Positions 24,085 to 39,013 of a stretch of 64,000 nt of DNA are shown piece by piece. Position numbers and translations under genes: made by a program. The stretch's first letter is position 1, and the number at the start of each line of letters is the position of its first letter. Source of the DNA: Flavobacteriaceae bacterium PS02334 (GTDB taxonomy: Bacteria; Bacteroidota; Bacteroidia; Flavobacteriales; Flavobacteriaceae); NCBI GenBank assembly GCA_029959295.1, contig JASCOH010000003.1, forward strand, positions 434,001 through 498,000. The letters run 5' to 3'. Under the pieces are notes generated by a model that had not been told where the DNA came from, searched no databases, and was given only the letters and a program-made list of their open reading frames with translations.

Positions 24085-26040
24085 GTGAAAAAACTCTTAT
24101 CATGCCACAGGTATGCCCTGTTGGTACACTTTATTCTATTGTTTCTGGTGATCTCCCAAATATTGAGATTGGCCTTCTTCATATGGCAGTATGATGAAGT
24201 TTCATGGAACATCATTGACCTTTCAATGACACTGCTAACAGGACTGTTTTTCGATCTCGGCACCGTCCTTTTCCTTACGCTTGCCGCCTTTCTCTACTAT
24301 TCCCTTATGCCTGATCGATGGATAGGCTCAGTTATGGACAAGGTCCTGATCTGGTTATTTACATCCTTGACGGTTTTTATCATGGTCCTTGTCTTCTTTG
24401 CAGAAATAACCTTTTGGGATGAATTTAGAACGCGGTTCAATTTCATTGCCGTCGACTATCTTATTTATACCCATGAGGTCGTTGCGAACATTGAAGAATC
24501 TTATCCCCTTCCGATCCTCATAGCTGGAGCCGTGTCCATAACCCTTGGAATACTTTATTCCTTCTGGGTGGGCAAATCGTTTAAAAAGACCCTCTCAAGC
24601 AAGTGCGGCCTAAAGGCTAGGCTGCTGGTACTAGCAATTACGATGGGAACCGCCGCGCTCTTCACTGCTTTCGTTTCAAATGCCGATGCCGAGTGGTCCG
24701 ATAACCGTTACAATTCTGAAATCTCCAAAGCTGGAATCTATTCGTTCTTTGCCGCTTTCAGGAACAATCAGATGAAGTACGATGAATTCTATACGTCGGT
24801 TGAGGACAGCAGGGCGTTTCAGATCGTCAAGGAAAAACTTGATGACGCCAATGGCGGCTATACCAAAGGAGGCTTTTCCATACACCGTCCGATAAAGGAT
24901 TCGCTGCCCACCGAAGAAAGGAAAAATGTAATATTCATCCTGGTGGAAAGCTTCAGCGGGAGCTTTCTTAAAGAATTCGGAAATGCGGATGCTATCACCC
25001 CGTTCGTTGACAGCCTCGCACAAAACAGTATCTTCTTTGAAAACATGTTTGCCACCGGAACCCGCACTGTCCGGGGCATGGAGGCCGTAACGCTGTCCAT
25101 ACCGCCCACACCTGGGCAAAGCATCGTAAAGCGCCCTGAAAACCAAAATCTGTTCACGGTATCCAATGTTTTCAAGTCGAAGCAGTACGATTGCAATTTC
25201 TTCTATGGGGGCGATGGGTATTTCGACAACATGAATGCCTATTTCGGCGGTAACGGCTTTACCATCTACGACCGCGGACGCGGCAGCGTCTTAAGCGACA
25301 AGATAAAAACAGACAGGAATAATATTGAAGACAGCGAAGTTACATTCGAAAATGCCTGGGGGATCTGTGATGAAGACGTCTATGCCAAGATGCTGAAGGT
25401 GGCAGACCGGCAACATCAAGAAAAGCTTCCCTTTTTCAATTTTGTGATGACAACATCAAACCACAGGCCCTATACCTATCCATCCGGCAAAATTGATATC
25501 GAACCCGGTTCGGGCCGCAATGGAGCTGTAAAGTATACCGATTACGCCTTAAGGCAATTATTTAAGAAGGCGTCCCTGAAGCCATGGTATAAGAATACAG
25601 TCTTTGTAATCATTGCGGACCATTGCGCCAACAGCGCCGGAAAGGATGAAATAGATGTAGCCAACTACCACATACCTGCCATGATAGTCAATTTTCCTGA
25701 AATACAAAATCAAAAAATACGGAAACAATGTTCCCAGATAGATATTTTCCCCACACTGTTTTCCCTGATGCACTGGAATTATGAATCCGACTTTTTTGGA
25801 AAAAATGTGTTGCATAATTCCTTTGAAGAACGTGCATTCGTCGGCACCTACCGAAAACTCGCATTGATGAAAAAAAACAAGGTCATGGTCCTTTCGGACC
25901 AGAAGAAGCAAAATTTCTACCGTTGGGACAAAACAGACAATAGCTTAAAGCCGCTTCCAATGGACAAAGGTTTTTTAGAGGAGACCATTTCATGGTACCA
26001 GACCGCTGACTACCTGTTCACCAATAAATTATTGAAATAA
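24085..26040 (+). CDS. LTA-synthase-like sulfatase-fold membrane protein
   Basis: A 651-residue protein with five N-terminal membrane helices and a large extracytoplasmic sulfatase-type domain from about residue 270: NVIFILVESFSGSFLKEFG, ATGTRTVRGMEAV (catalytic Thr region), and FVIIADHCANSAG late in the domain. The family moves phosphoglycerol or phosphoethanolamine headgroups. In a Gram-negative, lipoteichoic acid is not expected, so modification of another glycan or lipid is likelier. GTG start at 24085. Its stop overlaps the lipid kinase start by one base. Confidence 0.88.
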   Translation: MKKLLSCHRYALLVHFILLFLVISQILRLAFFIWQYDEVSWNIIDLSMTLLTGLFFDLGTVLFLTLAAFLYYSLMPDRWIGSVMDKVLIWLFTSLTVFIMVLVFFAEITFWDEFRTRFNFIAVDYLIYTHEVVANIEESYPLPILIAGAVSITLGILYSFWVGKSFKKTLSSKCGLKARLLVLAITMGTAALFTAFVSNADAEWSDNRYNSEISKAGIYSFFAAFRNNQMKYDEFYTSVEDSRAFQIVKEKLDDANGGYTKGGFSIHRPIKDSLPTEERKNVIFILVESFSGSFLKEFGNADAITPFVDSLAQNSIFFENMFATGTRTVRGMEAVTLSIPPTPGQSIVKRPENQNLFTVSNVFKSKQYDCNFFYGGDGYFDNMNAYFGGNGFTIYDRGRGSVLSDKIKTDRNNIEDSEVTFENAWGICDEDVYAKMLKVADRQHQEKLPFFNFVMTTSNHRPYTYPSGKIDIEPGSGRNGAVKYTDYALRQLFKKASLKPWYKNTVFVIIADHCANSAGKDEIDVANYHIPAMIVNFPEIQNQKIRKQCSQIDIFPTLFSLMHWNYESDFFGKNVLHNSFEERAFVGTYRKLALMKKNKVMVLSDQKKQNFYRWDKTDNSLKPLPMDKGFLEETISWYQTADYLFTNKLLK

Positions 26041-26918
26041 TGGTCTATATCCACTTCATAGTAAACCCGATCTCCGGAAAAGGCAATCACAATATAACCA
26101 ACACACTCCTGAGTGTATATTTTCCATCGTCAAAATATAAAATCAAGGTCGATTATACGGAATACAAAGGGCATGCAATTTTGCTGGCAAGGGATGCTGT
26201 GGAGAACGGCCCTGACTGCATCGTTGCCTGTGGCGGTGATGGCACCATAAGCGAGGTCGCCGCCGTTATGGTAAACCTTAAAATTCCCTTAGGCATAGTC
26301 CCTGTAGGCTCAGGCAATGGGCTTGCGTCAAACCTTAGGATTCCAAAGGATGTCGGGCTGGCGGTAAGAATGATCAAGAACCGCCGCGAATCATTCATAG
26401 ATGTTGGAAAAGTGAACAACCAGTATTTTTTCAGCAACATGGGAATAGGAATTGACGCCGTGATCATAAGGAAATATGAGGAGAACAACCAAAGGAGCTT
26501 GTACGGCTACATAAAGGCGGCACTCTGGGCAAGCTTGAATTACAAGCCCTTTGATACGGTTGTAATTCTTAATGGAAGAACCTTGGAAATGAGACCTTTT
26601 ATGCTGTTTGTTTCAAATTCCAATGAAATGGGTTACAATATGGGCCTAACGCCCGATGCAGAATTAAATGACGGGCTCCTTGACCTTGTAATTGTGCCGG
26701 AACTTAATTTTTGGGAAAAACTGTATCTAGGGTACTGCATATTGACCAATAGCAGTACCAGATTCAACAAGGCTTCCCGCGAATCCATCCGTCATATTGA
26801 CATTGAGCTCCCCGACAAGATATTCCTAGACATACAGACAGACGGCGAATACCATAATTTCAGGACCAATAAGCTTCAGGTAGAAGTCATTAAAAATGGA
26901 CTTAGGGTCATCTGCTAA
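26040..26918 (+). CDS. Diacylglycerol kinase-type lipid kinase
   Basis: A 292-residue protein of the DagK/YegS family: HFIVNPISGKGN at the start, CIVACGGDGTISEVAAVM (nucleotide-binding GGDGT), then GIVPVGSGNGLASNL. It phosphorylates diacylglycerol or a related lipid in the cytoplasm. The ATG overlaps the stop of the preceding LTA-synthase-like gene by one base, so the two are translationally coupled. Headgroup transferases of that kind release diacylglycerol, which this kinase could recycle. Confidence 0.9.
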   Translation: MVYIHFIVNPISGKGNHNITNTLLSVYFPSSKYKIKVDYTEYKGHAILLARDAVENGPDCIVACGGDGTISEVAAVMVNLKIPLGIVPVGSGNGLASNLRIPKDVGLAVRMIKNRRESFIDVGKVNNQYFFSNMGIGIDAVIIRKYEENNQRSLYGYIKAALWASLNYKPFDTVVILNGRTLEMRPFMLFVSNSNEMGYNMGLTPDAELNDGLLDLVIVPELNFWEKLYLGYCILTNSSTRFNKASRESIRHIDIELPDKIFLDIQTDGEYHNFRTNKLQVEVIKNGLRVIC

Positions 26919-26941
26919 AGATTGGGACAACCCTATAAAAA

Positions 26942-26971
26942 AACCTCCGTTACCTGAAGTTGACGGAGGTT
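26942..26971 (-). terminator. Rho-independent terminator for the nuclease gene
   Basis: Perfect 9-bp stem AACCTCCGT / ACGGAGGTT with a 12-base loop. On the minus strand it is followed by TTTTTT. It lies between the convergent lipid kinase and endonuclease genes. Confidence 0.85.
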
Positions 26972-27079
26972 ATTACGCTGCTATCAAAAGCCTTGGCATG
27001 CCCTTGATTGCGCTTTTAATAAAATAGGTGAGAACTGCACCTGAATTATCTGACGTATGCCGCAGCTGGCCGTACGCGA

Positions 27080-28171
27080 TTACTCAACTATTATTTTTTT
27101 CGTCACCGTTTGGTTTCTCACAGAAAGTTTCAAAAGATACAAGCCCTGCTTCAGGTCGCCTATTGCATAAGTATCACCCACCGGCTTGGGCTTTTTAATT
27201 CGCTGCAGCAGCTGGCCGTTGATGGAGAACAGTTCAATTTCATCCAGTTGTGTCTGGCTCCCGATGTTCACCCTTTGGTTGCGTGATGGGTTTGGATAAA
27301 TCACCAGGCTTGAAAAGACATCAAAAGTTTCCACAAATAAAGCATTCCCCCAAATCATAGTGACATACGAATTGTCGTCGATGAACGGATTCCTGTTTCC
27401 CTGGCGGGCATATATCGCGTTGTTCCTGGCAACTTCAAACGCGCTCACTGGATCCATCTGGTTCCATGCCAAGAGGATATTCCTGAAAGTGTCCGTGAAG
27501 ACCTGGGTGGTCGTACCGTTAAACATTGGGTAGGAAACGCCCCAGCTTGTAATTTCATTTTGGTAACGGGTGGCAAAATAAAAGTACATTCGGGCAATAT
27601 CGCCCTTGAACTCATCGATAGGTTCAAAAACAATCCCACTATATCCCGCGGCATAACCGCTATTTGACGCCTGTCCTAATTTAGAGCCGTTTGAAGAGGT
27701 ATAGCTTGAAGTAGGGCCGACTTTTCCATGGGGATAGTTGTTTCGCATCCCATTTACCTTTCCGTCTGTAGGGGTTATGAAATGCGCATCACTTTTCATG
27801 GGAGCATCTTCATTAAAGACAGATTGGGGAATAATGTGCTCCCTGTTATAGCAATCACCCTCTATACTGTAACTACCGCACTGGTTATTTCCCGGGGTAT
27901 AATTATAAGGATCTGTTCCTAGCGGATTTTCCGAGTACATGTCCAATACCGAACCGTCATCTTCATAGAAATAATCACGGTCCGAATTATTGTATGTGGT
28001 ATATAATCCGGCATAGCCTTTGTCAGTATGTCCCTTTATTATGTTGTACAGCTGTGTTTTCAGGCTATATCCCGTTCCGGATGCTGAATTGTAATAGTTG
28101 GCCGGTGCCTGGGCAAAACAAGTTAGGCTCAAGAGCAAAATTGTTGAAATATAGATTTTTTTAATTTCCAT
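27080..28171 (-). CDS. Secreted endonuclease I with T9SS sorting domain
   Basis: A 363-residue protein: signal peptide (MEIKKIYISTILLLSLTCFAQ is cut near residue 20), an endonuclease I (EndA/NucM) domain with the catalytic HIIPQSVF and the following GKVNGMRNNYPHG, and a C-terminal domain of about 70 residues starting VIYPNPSRNQ and ending TKKIIVE. That end is a type A sorting signal of the type IX secretion system, so it is exported to the surface or medium. It degrades nucleic acid non-specifically, probably for phosphate or DNA scavenging. Confidence 0.93.
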   Translation of the reverse strand: MEIKKIYISTILLLSLTCFAQAPANYYNSASGTGYSLKTQLYNIIKGHTDKGYAGLYTTYNNSDRDYFYEDDGSVLDMYSENPLGTDPYNYTPGNNQCGSYSIEGDCYNREHIIPQSVFNEDAPMKSDAHFITPTDGKVNGMRNNYPHGKVGPTSSYTSSNGSKLGQASNSGYAAGYSGIVFEPIDEFKGDIARMYFYFATRYQNEITSWGVSYPMFNGTTTQVFTDTFRNILLAWNQMDPVSAFEVARNNAIYARQGNRNPFIDDNSYVTMIWGNALFVETFDVFSSLVIYPNPSRNQRVNIGSQTQLDEIELFSINGQLLQRIKKPKPVGDTYAIGDLKQGLYLLKLSVRNQTVTKKIIVE

Positions 28172-28355
28172 TCGTATTAATTTATAGATATTTTGAGAAA
28201 GATTGATCTATGTCGTGATGCCGCCTAACGGATAAATGCCTGTGCATCGATAAGTATAAGCGCATCCATTCTTGCCTTACCGCGGCAGCGATAAGGGTAA
28301 TTAGAGAATGCCTGCACGGTATTTGGCAGGATATAAGAACTGGTGATTTAGGGAA

Positions 28356-28676
28356 TCAGTCAATTTTGGGCGGCTGCCATATCTCAATTGGATAAAGCAA
28401 TAAGATGGCATCCTGATGGCTGAATTGGTGCCTTGCTGTTTTTTCAGGACTAAAAAGGCTGATGATTTTATTGGGAAGGGAAACAAAAATCACCTTATGG
28501 AAACAAATAAAATTGGAGCAACGGTGCTGGCCATGGTGCTCAGAATGATCTTCCGCCTCCCGATTCGTATTGCAAATTTTCTTTTGCTCTGACAAGTGAC
28601 CATGCAATATTTTAAATGCCGGGGCAAATGCCAGGCTTAAGATGTAGAAACCCAATAAAATTGCTGTATGTTTCAT
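28356..28676 (-). CDS. Small secreted His/Cys protein, divergent DUF6660-like (copy 3)
   Basis: A 106-residue protein with an N-terminal hydrophobic helix, a His-rich segment (EDHSEHHGQHRCSNFICF) and the C-terminal IWQPPKID. The tail and general plan match the proteins at 10814 and 12898, although the CSPFC core is reduced. A perfect -7 element TATATTTG ends four bases before the ATG, again suggesting a leaderless mRNA. Function unknown; metal binding likely. Confidence 0.65.
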   Translation of the reverse strand: MKHTAILLGFYILSLAFAPAFKILHGHLSEQKKICNTNREAEDHSEHHGQHRCSNFICFHKVIFVSLPNKIISLFSPEKTARHQFSHQDAILLLYPIEIWQPPKID

Positions 28677-29282
28677 TAAGCAAATATATAAAAAGAAGCG
28701 CTATAAATTGTATGCCCAAACTGCAAATACCCGCACTGCAAAAACTACCTACTTCCTGAAGGGCTAATAAAAATAAAACAAAATAAAAAAAGGAAACGTC
28801 AGGATATTCTGGAAATTCTGGAAACATGGCAGGTAAAAAAAAACGAATCACACCCATTATCGCTATATGCCTATTTACAGAAAAGGAGACAGGGAGGTGT
28901 ACAGACACAGCTAAGGAGTGTGTTGTCAGCAATGGACATCATCGCGCCAAGCCGAAATTACACGAGACATCGATTTTGCTGTTGTATCAATCAGAATGGA
29001 ACGCATCCGCCCAGGCTTGTCCGCATGGATGCCTTTCAAACGCTGGAGGATCCATGAGGTTGCACATTCCAATCCATGCCCCTGCCTATCGTAATTTTCC
29101 TACTTAAGATAATCATGTTGATTTTAGAGTATCGAAGGAATTCGGCCTCTTCAGTTTATATTTTCGATCCATTTAATTAGATATCCAATCCTAAATTTTG
29201 CAGTTGGAAAAAAAATAAGAAAATTTGCATTTCTGAATAGTGGGCAGGTGCTTTTAAACCTGTCTTCGATAAATCGGCGCTG
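28677..29282. other. 600-bp gap, no gene supported
   Basis: Contains the promoter of the minus-strand gene at 28676 (TATATTTG, plus-strand 28681-28688). Open frames on both strands (28826-29107 plus, 28612-28932 minus) lack signals, family features or promoters and I do not call them. Confidence 0.5.
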
Positions 29283-29290
29283 TAACTTTG
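29283..29290 (+). promoter_or_regulatory. -7 element TAACTTTG
   Basis: Perfect TAnnTTTG match, 18 bases before the ATG of the small membrane-protein gene at 29309. Confidence 0.5.
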
Positions 29291-29308
29291 TTCAGAAACC
29301 AAATCATA

Positions 29309-29529
29309 ATGAAACGCACCATGCAGGCGCTTGCCGTTGCTCTTATGGGTTTGGGGCTCGCGTACTCTGTCCTTCTGGATGCGAAAAATTAGCAGCAGGC
29401 AAGAACATAGCCGAAGCCCTTGTTCTGTCTATGTTCTTCTGCACCTTCGCATATCTGACCATGGGGCTTATAAGAGAGCGTGCAAAGGAAAATGCATGGG
29501 CCTGCGATGGAAAAGATCGCAGGAAGTAA
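29309..29529 (+). pseudogene. Small two-helix membrane protein, frameshifted
   Basis: The ATG frame codes MKRTMQALAVALMGLGLAY and stops after 27 codons at DAKN. One extra A in the A run near 29383 would join it to the second frame (LAAGKNIAEALVLSMFF through to KDRRK), giving a 73-residue protein with two membrane helices. Either a real single-base deletion or a sequence error. No family recognised. Confidence 0.45.
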
Positions 29530-29739
29530 GATTCCCTTTCTAGACGGCCAGGCCTCAAGACCAAGGATTGCCAAAAAATCAATATTTGAGATCCAATACG
29601 ACCTAGCAATTTAACTCTAAAGCTCCAACTAAAAACATTTGCAAAGATTTTCAAGCATTTAATAGCGATATTGCGCTAAATTTTAAAAAAAAATCAATAA
29701 TTTTCCTACGTATAAAAGATATAAAAAAATCTGTTTTTC

Positions 29740-32700
29740 ATGGATATAATTAGGGATGCCTCAGATAAGCATAAAGGGGTGAAATTACAAAAATTGCGTG
29801 CCATCAAATTAGCATTTGATATCATCATCGGAAATCCAAAAGCGCAATTCCATATTGCTATAGAAAGCCAGGGCGATGTATTCATATACAGCGACGGCCG
29901 AAAATTCGTCGAAGAAAACAAGAACTATGAATCTAAAAATTTTTCGTTTTTCACGCATCAGGTATTGAATACACTGGTATACTTTCTCGACTACTGGCTA
30001 AAAGAATCTGTACAGAAAAGCAGCAATGTTATCTTCAGCTTCTATTCAACCAACAGCATTTCAAAAGAATACAATACCGCAGGCACGAAGAAGCTAGGCA
30101 TCGAACTCCCTGAAAGGCCTATCTTAGAACTGCTAGGCAAAAAGGAATGGAACACTGAAAACGACCTTATTGAAATCTGCAAAAAGGCGCTGCTTTCCGA
30201 ATATGAAAGGCAATATAAGGGCAAGAACAATAATTACAGCGCGCTGGAAGCTCTAGCTGAAGAAGACTGGAAATCTTTTTTTAGCAATATCATCTGGAAT
30301 TTCGAAATGCCGGCTAATGAAAAATTAGAATCTGAAATAAGCGCGCTCATCAAACAATATGCACTGCTCAAAAAGATAAATATCGACGGTAAGGAAGCTT
30401 TTATAGAGGCAATGCTAAGAAAAAGGCTGGAGGACAAGCAAGATGAAGACGATATGACAAGCCGATACCTGACTGATGAGGCTTTAGAACTTATTTTTTA
30501 CCAGATAGCCAATAACGAAATCAGCAAGGATATTTACAGATATGTGGATTTTGACTACAGCCTGCTTATTGGAAAGATCAAAGATTTTTCTTCCGCATTT
30601 TTAAAAGATAAATATTTCTCCATAAATAACCGGGACCACCTCCCCCGCTTCCTGCATAGAAATGTGAAAAAGCACAGTCCAGAAATAAGGATAGAGGCTT
30701 CGCACTTAAGGGAGACAAGACCCGAAAACCTAAAAAGAAGTGCGACTGTAGGAAGCATCCACAGCTTTATTGACAGCTCGCAGCCAACCTTTCTCTTTGG
30801 AGAAATAGGCAGCGGAAAAAGCTCAATAATAGCGCAGTACGTAATCGACCAGAATGAGGCCGGCAGCTTATCTCTGATGGTGCCGATCAATTTTGCAAAA
30901 GGAAAAATCACTTCCGACTTTGCGTCGCTGTTTGACTGCATCAATAACTTCATAAATTCCAACATACTAATCCAGGTTCCGCACTTTGACCTCGACTTCA
31001 TATTAAGCAACAGGTCATGCGCAATAGTCTTTGACGGCCTGGACGAACTAAATTACAGCGAAGCGCGAAATCTCATAAGGCACCTGGCAAAATTGAGCAA
31101 GGAATATGATGAACTTAGCATTATAGCCACAGGAAGGCCGATAGAACTCCAAGCCCTCGTCAGATTCAACGAATGGAATTGCCTTACTACCGTAGACCTG
31201 ACAGAAAACGAAATATTTGAAATTTTGAAAAATGAGGCCATTGCTTCGGGGCAAAATGAAGAAAATGCTACCACGGATGCTAGTCGCAGGCTCAATTTCC
31301 TGAAAAGCAGGAATGAACTGTGCCTGCTTGCAAAAACTCCTCTGATTGTATGCCTGCTTCGGGATTTTTTACAAGAAGGAGTTCAGGACGAGACACTCGG
31401 AACCCTAATGTACAAGATCCTGTCCAAGAGATTGCAATGGGATGAAATTGACTTGAAGGAAAACTATTCAAATTTTTTTAGCGAATTTCCTACAGCCCGG
31501 CAGCGAGAAAGCATTATTGCCGCTATTGCAGAAGATATTTTCCTTTCAGAAACAAGGCAGATCAGGGAGGGCAAGCTCTCGCAAATCATTGCAGAAAACA
31601 TACAGAGCGCAGACAGCATTAATAAAGTCCTGAGTGAGGCAGAACTGTTCTATAAAAATTTGTTCTTGCAGCTGAACGGCGATTTTTACAGCTTCATTTC
31701 CCAGCCGCTGCTGGAAGCGGCCTATAGCCTGAAGTTATCCTCAAAAATGTGTGAAACGCCTTTCGTCTTCGACACGGTCGACCATAATTGGAGAGCTTTG
31801 TCATTTGGCATAGCGATCAACCGCCTAAAAGGGAAAAATAAAGAATTGTCCGCAAATATTGAAGCCGTGCTAAAAGATCTGCTTGTTTACGATAGCAACA
31901 TCCCGATTGCGGCGATCTTAGTAAGCGAGTCTAAAGATCCAAAATTGGCAGAAGCTTTTATCACGCAGGTCTCGATGCTGGAATTTAGGCCTATCAGGAC
32001 CTGGAGCGAAGCGGAATCCTGGGGAGAACCTGATACCTATTCGCCATTTGCCATTGCAGAATGTATATTTCTTGCTGGAGAAAGAGGCTTCCAGTGGTAC
32101 TTCGACGAATACTTGGATACGAATCATCCCGTACAAATGTTTGAAGAGCCACAGATAAAAGCCATCCTCGGAAGCTTCCTGTTTATCAGTAAATTTAAGG
32201 TCAGCGCGGCACAAAAAGTCAAGCTGGCAGGAATAATACCTTACCATCTCGCTGCCAGGACCTACAGCTGCCAAACGTTTATTCCCTTGCTGGCAGCAAT
32301 CGCTCCAGAAGAATTCGATGTAAAATATAGGTGCCTGTCGCTGGCGAAGCAGCTTCACCACCCCCTTTTCAGCTCGAGATGCAAACAGCTGCTGCTGGAG
32401 GAGATTCCGGCGGGCAACAAGAGCGAAGTACTGGAAGCATTAGAAATAGTAATAGGCAACCGTGAAGAGAGCCGGATCGAAACGCTTTTATTCTATTTGG
32501 GTATAAGTGATGATGATCAAAGCGCTATCAACAAGACGATCCTTAATAAAATTATCAGGAGCATTTCACAAGGCGCTCAGCAATCATTAGTAGATATCAA
32601 TAAAATACTGCCCAAAAAAAGACTTAAGTCGTATCTGAGGTACTGCGCACTAACCAACAATGAAATTGCGGATAGCGCCGCAATCCTGCTCCATACTTTA

Positions 32701-35085
32701 TTTAAAGAACACGACCTGTACCTGACATGCAGGCCACTGCTTTCCAAAACCGAATTTTACCAAATCAGGCAGCATGACCGCAAGAAAATACTCGATGCAC
32801 TTCTATTCGACAATCCACAAATTTCACTAGACTTCCTGCTCAGCTATATCCCGAGGAGAAATAACAACAGAGACGAAATTCAAGAAATTTATATTTACTA
32901 CCTAATTAAGATCCTGGACAATATAGAAGGTATTTACAAGCATGAGTTTTTGTACGTAATAACCAGATTACCGGATTATCCTGTACTTAGCAGATATCCT
33001 GATATCAGGAATGCTTTTAAAGCTCTTTTAGGTAACAAGCCCCAATATATAGAATTTATCAGGGAAGCTTCGCAAGGCTTGGATTCCCGCCTGCGATTCA
33101 ATGCCAACTCAATCTCAATTTCCTGCTTTCCTGAAAACTCTAAAAGCGAATTGGAAAGCGTTATATATTCAGCCTCAAACAGATTTTACGACAGGGACGA
33201 ATGGCTCCGTTTTTGCACGAAGCTAAATTATGGGGATGCCCTTTTGGAGCACCTTAAGCTGATTCTGGATGAACTCCCGGAGCTTTCAAGATACTATGCG
33301 CTATACATACTCCAGCATAATGGCGCGAATCTTACAGCCGCACAGACCGACGAGCTGCTGGACGGACTTACAGGCAATGCCTACTTTCTCGACATTGGAG
33401 AACCATTCATGCCACAAAATGAAATGAAGAGGCTCGGTCAGGACGCCTCGTTTTTTCCTAACCTGATGACAATCTTTAACGGAGAGGATGCCGACAAATC
33501 TGCAAGGGCGGCAGACCATCTAATTTCGTACCATTACAGCAGGCTTTCCAAATTTGAACTTGGGAAAGCATATGCGCTCAAGTGCGAAAGCTGGGAAAGG
33601 GAACTTTACCATTTCCACCAATATAAAAGGAACCTGATGATGGATGCCGGGTTTTTGGAAGGCTTGGATGAAGCAAATAAAAAGATCAGGGAAAACACTG
33701 GGGGCGATTCCCTGCTGCAGCTGTATAAAAATACCGTAATTGACAGAAAGGACCAATGGATTGAGTTGCTAAAAAAGCTGCTCTACAATGGACAAAGTGG
33801 TGACTACCATACTATAGAACTTTTTTACAGGTGGCTGCTGACTTTAAAAAAAGCAGAACCGGACGCAGCTTTAAAAATAGCAGAAGCGGCGGCGGACCTG
33901 AAAACCTATCCGGCTATCATCGAGAATTCCAAGTTTAGAGGCTTTTATCCGTACCTTGTTTTGATATGCATTGAATTTAGCACCGCTGGAGCAGAAGAGA
34001 TCGAAGATACCCTGGAAAATTACCAATGCGATTCTGAATTGGCAGTCGCATTGCTGCACAGGCTTGGACGCATTCCTGAAGCATTTGCTGCGGAAAAGTC
34101 CGCTAGCTCGCACCTGACGCTGTTCGCAAAAAACAGTACAGTCAGGATAGCGAAAAAGGACCGTTATGAAATAGAAAAAATCTTTTTCGATGATGCCGTA
34201 CCAAATAATCTTTCCGAATATTTGGAATCAATAATCTTATTTAATACCTATTCCAAGGAGGACCTGGCGGAAATCGAACGGCAAGGAAAAATTGCCTGCT
34301 TTATCTATTCGATTGTTAAATTCTGCTACAACGAGGATATATCGTATGCTACGATCCTAAGTGCCATAAACAAGATAGGATGGCCCTACTACCGGAACGC
34401 CCTTACTCAATCTTTCCGGGAATCGCTGTTTATCATAAAACAAAAATTGCTGAGCTCAAACGAATCGCTGGGCTACTTCGCAGCAGAACTGAAGAAGGGT
34501 GTCGACGATTCCAAAAACCAGATATCAAACTCCGTTGTGGAAAACATGAGAGAGCTTTTCGACCTGCAGGTTCCCATAGAAAACGGATATTTACAGATAT
34601 TGTTCTATGAGCTGCAAAAAACGCCGTACATGCTTTCGCTAAATCTGATGAACAGCATTTTTCACTTTATCGTCAATATTATGGAAAAGGACGACCGATT
34701 GCTGCTGGGAATCGAAATTGACAAGCATATCAAAATACTTACAAACACGTACTCCCGCCGCGGTACCGGTGCTGAGATACAGCCACTTTTTTGGATGTTT
34801 TCACTCATTTCATTCTACTTGCAAAAAGGATCAAACGAATATTCTGTACAAGCATTTTTAAAAGGCCTCGAATCTGTATTCGTACAGTCGGATGCAAGTG
34901 AGTTCTACAGCGGTGGCAATAAGGTATCGAAAATGAAAGGCAGGGACCTAATATCATACAGCAGCGTCATATACGATAAAATCCTACCTGAGATTTTTCA
35001 AAGTGCAGTTGAAAAGGGGGCGCTGGGCGGCAAACCGGAAACAAGAGCAATATGCATCATGCTCAAAAGCTTTATCAGAACATAA
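29740..35085 (+). CDS. Giant NACHT/STAND NTPase with nuclease-like N-terminus (Avs-like defence candidate)
   Basis: A 1781-residue cytosolic protein. Residues about 1-240 start with a stretch that fits a Cap4/DUF4297-like PD-(D/E)xK nuclease: E42, D46 and E59-x-K61 in strand-like surroundings. The ATPase follows: Walker A GEIGSGKS at 354-361, NACHT-type Walker B IVFDGLDEL at 429-437, and ATGRP at 463-467. Residues about 700-1781 are almost wholly helical with no motif I recognise, as in the target-sensing repeats of Avs proteins. The order effector-STAND-repeats and the size fit antiviral STAND proteins. Stands alone on its strand. The nuclease assignment is the least certain part. Confidence 0.75.
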   Translation: MDIIRDASDKHKGVKLQKLRAIKLAFDIIIGNPKAQFHIAIESQGDVFIYSDGRKFVEENKNYESKNFSFFTHQVLNTLVYFLDYWLKESVQKSSNVIFSFYSTNSISKEYNTAGTKKLGIELPERPILELLGKKEWNTENDLIEICKKALLSEYERQYKGKNNNYSALEALAEEDWKSFFSNIIWNFEMPANEKLESEISALIKQYALLKKINIDGKEAFIEAMLRKRLEDKQDEDDMTSRYLTDEALELIFYQIANNEISKDIYRYVDFDYSLLIGKIKDFSSAFLKDKYFSINNRDHLPRFLHRNVKKHSPEIRIEASHLRETRPENLKRSATVGSIHSFIDSSQPTFLFGEIGSGKSSIIAQYVIDQNEAGSLSLMVPINFAKGKITSDFASLFDCINNFINSNILIQVPHFDLDFILSNRSCAIVFDGLDELNYSEARNLIRHLAKLSKEYDELSIIATGRPIELQALVRFNEWNCLTTVDLTENEIFEILKNEAIASGQNEENATTDASRRLNFLKSRNELCLLAKTPLIVCLLRDFLQEGVQDETLGTLMYKILSKRLQWDEIDLKENYSNFFSEFPTARQRESIIAAIAEDIFLSETRQIREGKLSQIIAENIQSADSINKVLSEAELFYKNLFLQLNGDFYSFISQPLLEAAYSLKLSSKMCETPFVFDTVDHNWRALSFGIAINRLKGKNKELSANIEAVLKDLLVYDSNIPIAAILVSESKDPKLAEAFITQVSMLEFRPIRTWSEAESWGEPDTYSPFAIAECIFLAGERGFQWYFDEYLDTNHPVQMFEEPQIKAILGSFLFISKFKVSAAQKVKLAGIIPYHLAARTYSCQTFIPLLAAIAPEEFDVKYRCLSLAKQLHHPLFSSRCKQLLLEEIPAGNKSEVLEALEIVIGNREESRIETLLFYLGISDDDQSAINKTILNKIIRSISQGAQQSLVDINKILPKKRLKSYLRYCALTNNEIADSAAILLHTLFKEHDLYLTCRPLLSKTEFYQIRQHDRKKILDALLFDNPQISLDFLLSYIPRRNNNRDEIQEIYIYYLIKILDNIEGIYKHEFLYVITRLPDYPVLSRYPDIRNAFKALLGNKPQYIEFIREASQGLDSRLRFNANSISISCFPENSKSELESVIYSASNRFYDRDEWLRFCTKLNYGDALLEHLKLILDELPELSRYYALYILQHNGANLTAAQTDELLDGLTGNAYFLDIGEPFMPQNEMKRLGQDASFFPNLMTIFNGEDADKSARAADHLISYHYSRLSKFELGKAYALKCESWERELYHFHQYKRNLMMDAGFLEGLDEANKKIRENTGGDSLLQLYKNTVIDRKDQWIELLKKLLYNGQSGDYHTIELFYRWLLTLKKAEPDAALKIAEAAADLKTYPAIIENSKFRGFYPYLVLICIEFSTAGAEEIEDTLENYQCDSELAVALLHRLGRIPEAFAAEKSASSHLTLFAKNSTVRIAKKDRYEIEKIFFDDAVPNNLSEYLESIILFNTYSKEDLAEIERQGKIACFIYSIVKFCYNEDISYATILSAINKIGWPYYRNALTQSFRESLFIIKQKLLSSNESLGYFAAELKKGVDDSKNQISNSVVENMRELFDLQVPIENGYLQILFYELQKTPYMLSLNLMNSIFHFIVNIMEKDDRLLLGIEIDKHIKILTNTYSRRGTGAEIQPLFWMFSLISFYLQKGSNEYSVQAFLKGLESVFVQSDASEFYSGGNKVSKMKGRDLISYSSVIYDKILPEIFQSAVEKGALGGKPETRAICIMLKSFIRT

Positions 35086-35245
35086 TTAAATTATCAACTT
35101 GCAAACATGATCAGAGGCACCTGAACAAGTTGCGCCAAAACCAGCCAAACAGCACATGCCACGGCCCGCTAGCAGGGTGCCATTTCCTATTATACGATTT
35201 TTGCGGTTGCAATTATGCTCGATAGGAAACAAAAATAAGAATGGC

Positions 35246-35509
35246 ATGGAAAAAAATCTGACCAAGGAAGACTTAAAGCAGTTCAAGCTGGAGCTGCTCG
35301 ATGAAATCAAGACAATCCTGCGCGATTTGGGGCCTGGACAGGAAAGTCCGGATGATGGAGGCTGGATCAAGGGAAGGTCGGTAAGAAAAAGACTTGCTGT
35401 ATCGCCCGGCACTCTTCAGAACCTGAGGGTCGCTGGAAAGCTACGGTTTAAGAAAGTAATGGGTACCTATTATTACAGCGCCCAGGACGTAGACGCTTTT
35501 TTTCAATGA
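35246..35509 (+). CDS. Excisionase-like helix-turn-helix protein
   Basis: An 87-residue protein: helical N-terminus (MEKNLTKEDLKQFKLELLDE), then the winged HTH WIKGRSVRKRLAVSPGTLQN and GKLRFKKVMGTYYYSAQDVD. I use the ATG at 35246; the longer frame has no support. The next gene starts inside its stop codon (ATGA). Same family as the proteins at 60027 and 60406, which sit beside rteC; all are small DNA-binding proteins of Bacteroidota mobile elements. Confidence 0.75.
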   Translation: MEKNLTKEDLKQFKLELLDEIKTILRDLGPGQESPDDGGWIKGRSVRKRLAVSPGTLQNLRVAGKLRFKKVMGTYYYSAQDVDAFFQ

Positions 35510-35820
35510 CACCCCCTTCAGTTAATATAGCATTACAGTCAGCGATTGACCTGCTTGAAAATGACACCAGGCTCAACACTTTCCATATGGCGCTATTGCT
35601 TTCTGTTCTGCGTGTCGGAGCTCGCCAGGGATCCGTCGAAGCCGTTATAGCGACCCGGGCGACTCTGATGTCTCTTTCGCATATCCGGACGCTTCCCACC
35701 TACCACAAATATTTCAGGGAACTCCAGCAGTTTGGCTATATTTGCTACAGCCCGTCCTATCATCCGGCGGGGAAAAGCAGGATCGTCGTGAAATTATCGC
35801 AATTGAATTACAGAGAATAG
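35506..35820 (+). CDS. Conserved island protein, unknown function
   Basis: A 104-residue protein coupled to the HTH gene by an ATGA overlap. It contains TFHMALLLSVLRVGARQGSVEAV and ends with a strand-rich region (SRIVVKLSQLNYRE); the middle SLSHIRTLPTYHKYFRELQQFGYI looks like a replication or regulator-type winged helix. Similar pairs occur in Bacteroidota islands. I do not recognise a named family. Confidence 0.6.
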   Translation: MTPPSVNIALQSAIDLLENDTRLNTFHMALLLSVLRVGARQGSVEAVIATRATLMSLSHIRTLPTYHKYFRELQQFGYICYSPSYHPAGKSRIVVKLSQLNYRE

Positions 35821-35971
35821 ATGCTTTGGAGTCCACTTGAGCATTGCTAAGCGAGGGAACAAAGTTTATATTTTTTACTGCACCAGCATCGTGCTCCCAA
35901 TCATCAAACTGATGAAAAGCCGCTGGAAATAGTTCTGCGAGATATTTTATCAGACCTATAAAATTAGGGCT

Positions 35972-37531
35972 TTACCCAGGCAGTTCTGCCACAGCTTTCC
36001 CACCCATTGCTTCCTTGACCAGGTAACCGAGGAATGATGCGAAAGGCTCGATGTCCAGGTCCACGCTTGCACTTTCCAATGCTTTCATGTAGTCATTTCT
36101 CCTTTCAACAGGGATTACTGTCCAAGGATATCCTCCTGAAGCCAGCATGGCATTCATCAGAAAGCGCCCCATACGCCCGTTGCCATCCATATAGGGGTGG
36201 ATAAATACAAATATGAAATGCCCTAGCACAGTACGGACAGAGGCCTCAGGTTCGTCTTGTAATAATTCAAACAATACTGGCATTGCATCACGCATCGCAT
36301 CTACGTTCAAGGGCGTGTGTTTGGAATTTCCTATATAAACCAGGTGGTTTCTGTACCCTGCCAGATCTGCAGGTTTTAAGATACCCGCCGCCACGCTGGG
36401 ATCAAATAGTTCCCTATACCACTTGGCATGGTCAGCGTCGGCTTGCAAACCTGCATTCTTTCCATCAAGGATCATTTTTATACTTTCTTTTACAGATTGG
36501 AAAGCCTGATAATATCCTCTTGCCGCCATAGCGTCGCGCTGCTGTCTGTCGTCTTCATTTTCAGTGGCACTCCATTCTCCCGAACTGACTCTTTCGATCA
36601 GTTCAGGGGTTACGCGGTACCGTTCGATAGATAACGAATGGTAGGCATCCGTAACGTAAATGTCATCGATATCTTTTAGAAACGCATCGTGCCTTTCGGG
36701 AATTCCTGGCGGAGCGGGAAAATTTTCTATAACTACCTCTCGCATCTTGTCCCACATGAGGCGTATACGGCTGGCATAAGGTGAGCGTTCACGCCCCGAA
36801 AGCTTAAGCCCGGTCTTGTTTTCAAACGGATCTTCTTCGCGGATATCGTAATCTGCCTGCTTGAATGTAGCTATGATCTGGTCTGCTATCTTCTCCCTGC
36901 CGATATTTCTGAATGCCCCGGCCAAGCGCCCGGCTAATTTGGTATGCCCGTTCTCAAGCAATACCGGCAAGAGTTCTGATGCGTCCCTTATTAGAGAAAG
37001 TGCCGTACGCGCATCGATGGCATTGCGGACATATGTGCCTGCCGAACTGTAGATCAACGCAGCCTGGAGATTATACATCCTAATTCCGTTCCCTTGTACT
37101 GCGAGCTGGCCTGCAGGTGGAAGGTCTGCTCGAAAATTCAAAAGGGAAGTCTTGTGCGGCAAAGCCGTAGGAAGATTGTTTCCTTGGGGAGAACGAACAA
37201 GCAGCTGCTGCGGAATTACCGGATTGCCTGCATGGATTAAAAGTGACTGATCGGCTGACAGGCACCATTTCTCTCCGTATTTTCGTTCTAGGAAGACTGC
37301 TACAAAATCCCAATAGGAACTGTACCATGATGTGGTCTCACCGTCCTTTTCATTGGGATCAATAGCAATGTACCAGCCCCTTGTCACTTCCTTTATAAAC
37401 CCATTCTTGAGAAGTATTTCCCTATACCTGCGGCTAGGCATATCGTCTGTATGGATTCCTACTGTGCCTCTCTCCTGCAGCTCCTGCAGTAACTTAAGTG
37501 CTCCTACAAATCTTTCACGTGGTGTAGCCAT
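35972..37531 (-). CDS. Fic-domain protein with AbiEi-like N-terminus
   Basis: A 519-residue protein. The first 70 residues look like the winged helix of AbiEi-type regulators (YREILLKNGFIKEVTRGWYI), followed by an AbiEi-like middle. The C-terminal half is a Fic domain with the catalytic motif HPYMDGNGR at 445-453; Fic enzymes usually transfer AMP to protein side chains. The inhibitory-helix motif before it reads S299-LSI-E303-R304, so the usual Gly/Asn after Glu is Arg. The array of 24-bp repeats directly upstream may be its own operator. Confidence 0.88.
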   Translation of the reverse strand: MATPRERFVGALKLLQELQERGTVGIHTDDMPSRRYREILLKNGFIKEVTRGWYIAIDPNEKDGETTSWYSSYWDFVAVFLERKYGEKWCLSADQSLLIHAGNPVIPQQLLVRSPQGNNLPTALPHKTSLLNFRADLPPAGQLAVQGNGIRMYNLQAALIYSSAGTYVRNAIDARTALSLIRDASELLPVLLENGHTKLAGRLAGAFRNIGREKIADQIIATFKQADYDIREEDPFENKTGLKLSGRERSPYASRIRLMWDKMREVVIENFPAPPGIPERHDAFLKDIDDIYVTDAYHSLSIERYRVTPELIERVSSGEWSATENEDDRQQRDAMAARGYYQAFQSVKESIKMILDGKNAGLQADADHAKWYRELFDPSVAAGILKPADLAGYRNHLVYIGNSKHTPLNVDAMRDAMPVLFELLQDEPEASVRTVLGHFIFVFIHPYMDGNGRMGRFLMNAMLASGGYPWTVIPVERRNDYMKALESASVDLDIEPFASFLGYLVKEAMGGKAVAELPG

Positions 37532-38256: not shown

Positions 38257-39013
38257 ATGTTAAAAGTAACTTTTTACCAAAAAATCGGACAAAGTTGATA
38301 AAACGGTGAATGACCAATCTTTGCCCGTCTGTCGTACAAGACAAAAAGAATTTCGATCAGTACTGGTAAATCGATTTCAAGGAAAGATGGTTATTTACAA
38401 ACAATCTCAGAAATGTCCTGAAACTCGAAAAAGGAAAGATTATCAAATCCTCTCTTGATACTTTTCAACTTCACACAGAAAAAAAATTACTGGAACTGTC
38501 CAAAATTGATCCTGAAGTTTCATTAGAATTATTAAAAGCAGAACTTTCAGGAAAAACAAAAATCAAAACCAAACAGATTACAATTCTGGAACTAATGGAA
38601 AATCACAATAAATTTTTTGAAAGAAAATTCATAGCCGGCGAGAGATCCAAAGCCTCTTTCCAAAAGTATTTAAGGTCTTGTGATCTGCTAAAGCAGTACG
38701 GTCTTGATGATATGCCTGCTGACGATATATCAACTGGATTTGTTTTTAATCTTGAAGAATTCCTTAAATATGAGAGTTCATTTAAAGGCCAGGTCGGTAT
38801 ATTGTGAAGTACATGAGAATGTATAAAACAGCCTGCAATTATTGTAAAAGAGTGGATTTGATAATAAAAAATCCTTTTGATGCTTATGATGGAAAAATAA
38901 GTATTAAAGATGCAATATTTCTAACCCAGCAGGAACTAAACCGTATTCAAGAAAAAACTATGTTTAAAAACAGATTACATATTATTCCTCTTGGATTACC
39001 TGTAAAGATATAA
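38257..39013 (+). pseudogene. Truncated tyrosine recombinase (integrase)
   Basis: Three pieces in different frames: an N-terminal MLKVTFYQK at 38257, a SAM-like core-binding part with ITILELMENHNKFFERKF and ERSKASFQKYLRSCDLLKQYG, and KYMRMYKTACNYCKRVDLI with KNPFDAYDGKISI ending soon after FLTQQELNRIQEK. The catalytic domain with R-H-R-Y is missing. It is a dead Bacteroidota-type integrase. Position 260 bases from the tRNA scar fits an element end. Confidence 0.8.

Follow-up and report, generated by a model that had tools for sequence, protein, structure and literature searches.

The window, a 64,000-nucleotide stretch of contig JASCOH010000003.1 of Flavobacteriaceae bacterium PS02334, contains a giant reading frame whose product raises two questions: is it an immune receptor directed against phages and, if so, does it belong to a family already described? 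A preliminary description made from the sequence had proposed a candidate new antiviral system of Avs type, with a nuclease, a NACHT domain and an unfamiliar sensor. We saw that the frame is intact over its 1,781 codons, as described, and consider it quite likely that it encodes a single-gene bacterial STAND (NACHT) immune receptor, in which a solenoid would sense infection, the NACHT domain would oligomerize and a nuclease would cut DNA. Its features are as follows.

29740..35085, + strand: single-gene STAND/NACHT protein, 1,781 aa; intact frame, full-length relatives L040, L041 and L042
29740..30549, + strand: N-terminal nuclease domain, residues 1-270, predicted DUF4297/Cap4/LmuA-like PD-(D/E)xK fold
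29863..29922, + strand: predicted active site (conservation, alignment with 8xav), with E42 at 29863-29865, D46 at 29875-29877, E58 and E59 at 29911-29916, K61 at 29920-29922
30721..31539, + strand: NACHT STAND NTPase domain with helical extension, about residues 328-600
30799..30822, + strand: Walker A GEIGSGKS, residues 354-361
31033..31047, + strand: Walker B DGLDE, residues 432-436
31132..31140, + strand: sensor motif GRP, residues 465-467
31540..35082, + strand: C-terminal alpha-solenoid, presumed sensor, about residues 601-1781

Domain architecture

Predicted folds and relatives indicate a tripartite protein made of effector, NTPase and C-terminal part. The same architecture was found over the full length of L040, L041 and L042, at 60, 30 and 30% identity, respectively; the F. 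odoriferum protein L040, likewise of 1,781 aa, also matches the start of the window protein. Because these three relatives retain the architecture full-length, the observation is more than a chance one, and fold searches agree with the effector-NACHT-sensor order proposed earlier. Family models matched little of the protein: PADLOC gave no match at E<=0.1 and NCBIfam none at E<=1, while Pfam returned P-loop-type models only, all below their cut-offs.

The Walker A, DGLDE and GRP motifs were all found where the preliminary description had placed them. With both Walker motifs and a NACHT-type NTPase fold present, the protein belongs to the STAND/NACHT NTPases (bNACHT-like). GRP is kept in L039-L043, L045 and L004, with ARP at this place in L044. 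The best Foldseek match of the predicted nuclease-plus-NACHT model was Avs3 bound to terminase (E 1.8e-9).

The C-terminus, described earlier as long, helical and free of motifs, is indeed nearly all helical in the AlphaFold2 prediction, a solenoid for which Pfam gave no match up to E 1. Structural search with the sensor model returned fold matches no better than generic; no Avs chain was listed up to E 10 when the sensor profile was compared with the PDB, and no Avs protein was among the 50 matches listed in the sensor-fold search, a list that excludes nothing. The sensing role of this part is inferred. The unfamiliarity of the sensor is upheld by fold searches and by the relatives: it is a very large helical sensor for which we found no close characterized relative.

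An effector shared with Lamassu-like operons

The proposed DUF4297/Cap4-like nuclease gained support from fold searches of the predicted structure and from the relatives; the N-terminal domain matched no PADLOC model up to E 1 and no Pfam model. In the predicted model an alpha-beta-beta-beta-alpha-beta core has acidic residues and a lysine, seen also in the conservation, in place, supporting its assignment as a putative PD-(D/E)xK nuclease. Among the residues suggested previously for the active site, E42, D46 and K61 are invariant in the 15 rows of the N-domain alignment; E59 did not hold, being G in two of the 15 rows, and it is its neighbor E58 that is invariant. When the profile is aligned to 8xav, a DUF4297 chain, D46, E59 and K61 lie opposite D40, Q53 and K55. 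The two match weakly in sequence, with E 0.0059 over the whole chain and 0.26 for the best stretch. Q53 belongs to a set of three positions that were mutated in work on HerA-DUF4297, as given in the accessible part of PMC11291478.

Related domains occur apart from the NACHT protein. A tblastn search of the whole protein against 72,556 plasmid records gave two matches, in Peribacillus (E 4e-25) and Proteus (E 2e-16), both covering residues 3 to 260 or 269. We identified ten operons with a related gene 1 (L005, L007, L008, L054, L057, L058, L063, L068, L069 and L071), in the order gene 1 (∼380-430 aa), gene 2 (∼160-190 aa), gene 3 (∼490-660 aa; truncated in L005, where the locus ends). A P-loop-like NGxGK(S/T) motif stands at the start of the gene 3 product in all ten; Pfam AAA_23 was matched in gene 3 of L008 (E 6.4e-9) and not in that of L007. 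In L054, the sole operon scanned with PADLOC, gene 1 matched LmuA (E 9.4e-17), gene 3 matched LmuB (E 8e-57) and gene 2 gave a weak match to another model alone. Judged by homologues and fold, the N-terminal domain of the window protein is an LmuA-type effector domain. According to the accessible text of PMC10586767, Lamassu and ABC-3C form one superfamily, with the effector carried by LmuA.

The operons lie in varied settings: L007 on a plasmid next to Tn7-like transposition genes; L008 on plasmid pR997, flanked on one side by transfer genes and on the other by further genes (R997 is an ICE); L063 on plasmid pHX3; L005 in a genome; and others on viral contigs. L055 and L056 carry the same operon as L054, and the three contigs look like P2-type prophage, with adjoining tail genes recognized by eye.

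No LmuB was found among ten window proteins scanned, the protein itself included, and no LmuB or LmuC gene was found beside the window gene.

Relatives and exchange of effectors

Scanning 84,980 species with a sequence pattern gave 519 candidate stretches that reduced to 15 loci, a lower bound. Eight loci match in the NACHT region only; the other seven extend into the sensor: (i) four in Flavobacterium (L039-L042); (ii) L043 in Moorella; (iii) L044 in a Verrucomicrobiales MAG, truncated at the contig end; (iv) L045 in Paraliomyxa. A further relative, L004, lies in genome G136 and shares the window's phylum. A profile search gave matches in 29 of 395 genomes: two full-length (G301 and G136), one (G053) in the C-terminal end only and 26 in the NACHT region only. 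Within the order, matches were confined to 3 of 395 genomes: the window's own, one with a 53-aa piece only, and one other. The F. notoginsengisoli copy (L039, 9041-14385) is divided between two frames (751 and 932 aa) and is apparently broken. At L062 (G053; 1-2145, - strand) a frame of >700 aa with another architecture has a DUF4297-like N-domain (profile E 1e-10).

All five Flavobacterium rows, the window included, carry the nuclease N-domain. Judged from their sequences, some relatives with the same NACHT and sensor bear a different effector, Metallophos in place of the nuclease: Pfam identified it in L004 (E 7e-12), L043 (E 3.5e-11) and L045 (E 4.2e-14), with L044 added by motifs alone. 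Metal-site-like motifs number five of five in three of these four rows and four of five in L044. A tree of the NACHT-plus-sensor part groups the five nuclease-bearing rows as a single clade (100/100). For the N-domain, the NACHT-fused rows, again five, also make up a clade (94/92), next to the ten operon rows; both trees have midpoint roots only.

The N-domain of the Moorella protein matched NCBIfam models DS8_antiphage (E 1.6e-24) and DS9_1 (E 1.4e-16), both below cut-off. In both plasmid records examined, of 21 and 16 matching, a standalone relative of this phosphoesterase precedes a GASH-annotated gene. This order is in line with the calcineurin-type effectors of GTPase-centered conflict systems, as described in the accessible part of PMC7159879; STAND proteins with an N-terminal domain of calcineurin type have likewise been published (PMC8195603, partial text).

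Genomic neighborhoods

The genes around the window gene (24085-37531) encode a sulfatase, a lipid kinase, endonuclease I, small ORFs, an HTH_17 protein and a Fic protein. Among the scanned neighbors only the Fic protein had a strong defense-type match in PADLOC. This 519-aa protein (35972-37531, - strand; Pfam Fic E 2e-9, PADLOC SoFic E 1.2e-18) has a long N-terminal extension and the motif HPYMDGNGR, which resembles the Fic motif. The small HTH_17-like protein (35156-35509, + strand) matched below cut-off; near L040 there are an HTH_17 protein and RteC, suggesting a conjugative-transposon setting there.

GC content is 41-48% in 4-kb steps from 12 to 36 kb of the window, where a single 1.5-kb step has 39%, and drops near 37.5 kb; the gene itself has 0.424, and nine of ten 20-kb genome samples have 0.35-0.38, the tenth 0.429. 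At 38595-39013 (+ strand) there are two short frames, the first with a match below cut-off to a phage-integrase SAM-like domain (E 0.0085); the pair may be a disrupted integrase gene bordering the high-GC block. Together, the block and the possible integrase fragment suggest acquisition.

Relatives have defense-type neighbors at five of the seven sensor-reaching loci (L039-L043, those whose surroundings were scanned), the neighbors having been chosen by hand and with no control set. L041 lies after the Gabija genes GajA (E 2.8e-242) and GajB (E 1.1e-220). L039 and L040 come after AbiEii genes, with a HEPN gene after L040; genes for a type III methyltransferase and for a Dsr1-like protein lie in the vicinity of L043; and a predicted pPIWI-associated nuclease lies <=10 kb from L042.

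Proposed mechanism and alternatives

The HEAT/ARM-like solenoid would keep the protein inactive until it binds a molecule from the phage or some other indicator of infection. Nucleotide-loaded NACHT domains could then oligomerize, as the fold they share with Avs3 and NLRC4 suggests, and would bring together the DUF4297/LmuA-type nuclease domains, which may cut dsDNA of phage and host. By analogy with HerA-DUF4297, SeAvs3 and bNACHT25, infection would be stopped by cell death or arrest. In the accessible portion of PMC11291478, SeAvs3 is described to tetramerize and DUF4297-HerA to cleave dsDNA; in that of PMC12169576, the effector of bNACHT25 is a PD-(D/E)XK DNase.

One could speculate that the protein, still a STAND receptor armed with this nuclease, responds not to a phage infection signal but to plasmids, to damaged DNA or to some disturbance of a host process. 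The helical sensor gives no hint of a ligand, sensing by bNACHT25 goes by way of DnaJ, a chaperone of the host (PMC12169576, partial text), and Lamassu systems also target plasmids (PMC10586767, partial text); nothing here separates such sensing from direct sensing of phage, and we hold this alternative to be unlikely, though with some weight.

STAND ATPases also serve as regulators, and the N-terminal domain without a Pfam match would suit a regulator of some housekeeping or developmental process outside defense. Yet relatives are few (the 3 of 395 genomes above); plasmids and viral contigs carry the effector domain too, within Lamassu-like operons; some relatives have Gabija, AbiEii or Dsr1-like genes close by; and the relative L039 is split. 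Such a role appears improbable. The broken L039 could instead be a hint that the window gene is itself a decayed or inactive immune gene, but with its frame intact and catalytic and Walker motifs kept, decay is very hard to credit. The immune receptor remains the reading we prefer.

Comparison with known systems

The resemblance to Avs is one of fold: the match to Avs3 holds for nuclease and NACHT, whereas sequence membership in Avs1-Avs5 was not borne out by PADLOC (2023 models; no match at E<=0.1), and the window protein differs in this from Avs3 and Avs4. Among five relatives scanned, four matched no Avs model and L045 matched Avs2 over the P-loop only (E 0.03). With Lamassu LmuA (ABC-3C) the protein has the LmuA-type effector domain in common; Lamassu pairs that domain with a separate ATPase, whereas here a NACHT switch is part of the same chain, without LmuB or LmuC in an operon. 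Similarly, the nuclease of HerA-DUF4297 forms its complex with HerA, an ATPase encoded as a protein of its own, while that of the window protein is tethered to NACHT. In the accessible text of PMC12169576, bNACHT25 and bNACHT32 (clade 6) have, like the window protein, a PD-(D/E)XK DNase, NACHT and a helical C-terminal part, in their case NCH1; the likeness is one of domain description, and the C-terminal part is ∼1,180 aa in the window protein. The phosphoesterase of the DS-8 and DS-9 anti-phage systems and of the GASH-GTPase systems is related to the N-domain of the Moorella protein, a place taken by the nuclease in the window protein.

Receptors that join a nuclease to STAND or NACHT are already known (PMC12169576 for NACHT), as are Cap4-type nucleases in Lamassu, CBASS and Avs3 (PMC10586767, PMC11291478); therefore the proposed ‘new system’ is at most a new variant. 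In the literature searched, mostly outside subscription papers and represented by listings and partial texts, we did not meet the sensor family, an LmuA-type effector on a NACHT protein or the phosphoesterase exchange.

A broader reading, to which we give somewhat less than even credence, is that of a distinct NLR-like receptor family with its own solenoid of ∼1,100-1,200 residues in four phyla (Bacteroidota, Bacillota, Myxococcota and Verrucomicrobiota). The solenoid would sense an unknown conserved infection signal and whole effectors would be swapped, Flavobacterium using a Lamassu-type DNase and other lineages a DS-8/GASH-like phosphoesterase of calcineurin type. The window protein would bring a receptor family with an uncharacterized sensor into the bacterial NLR-like repertoire, and it connects three defense classes by the parts they have in common, namely the effectors of Lamassu type, the phosphoesterases of GASH/DS-8 type and the NACHT switches. 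The pairing of one sensor with two weapons offers a clean test of the independence of recognition and effector, and the identity of the ligand would name another infection signal guarded by bacteria.
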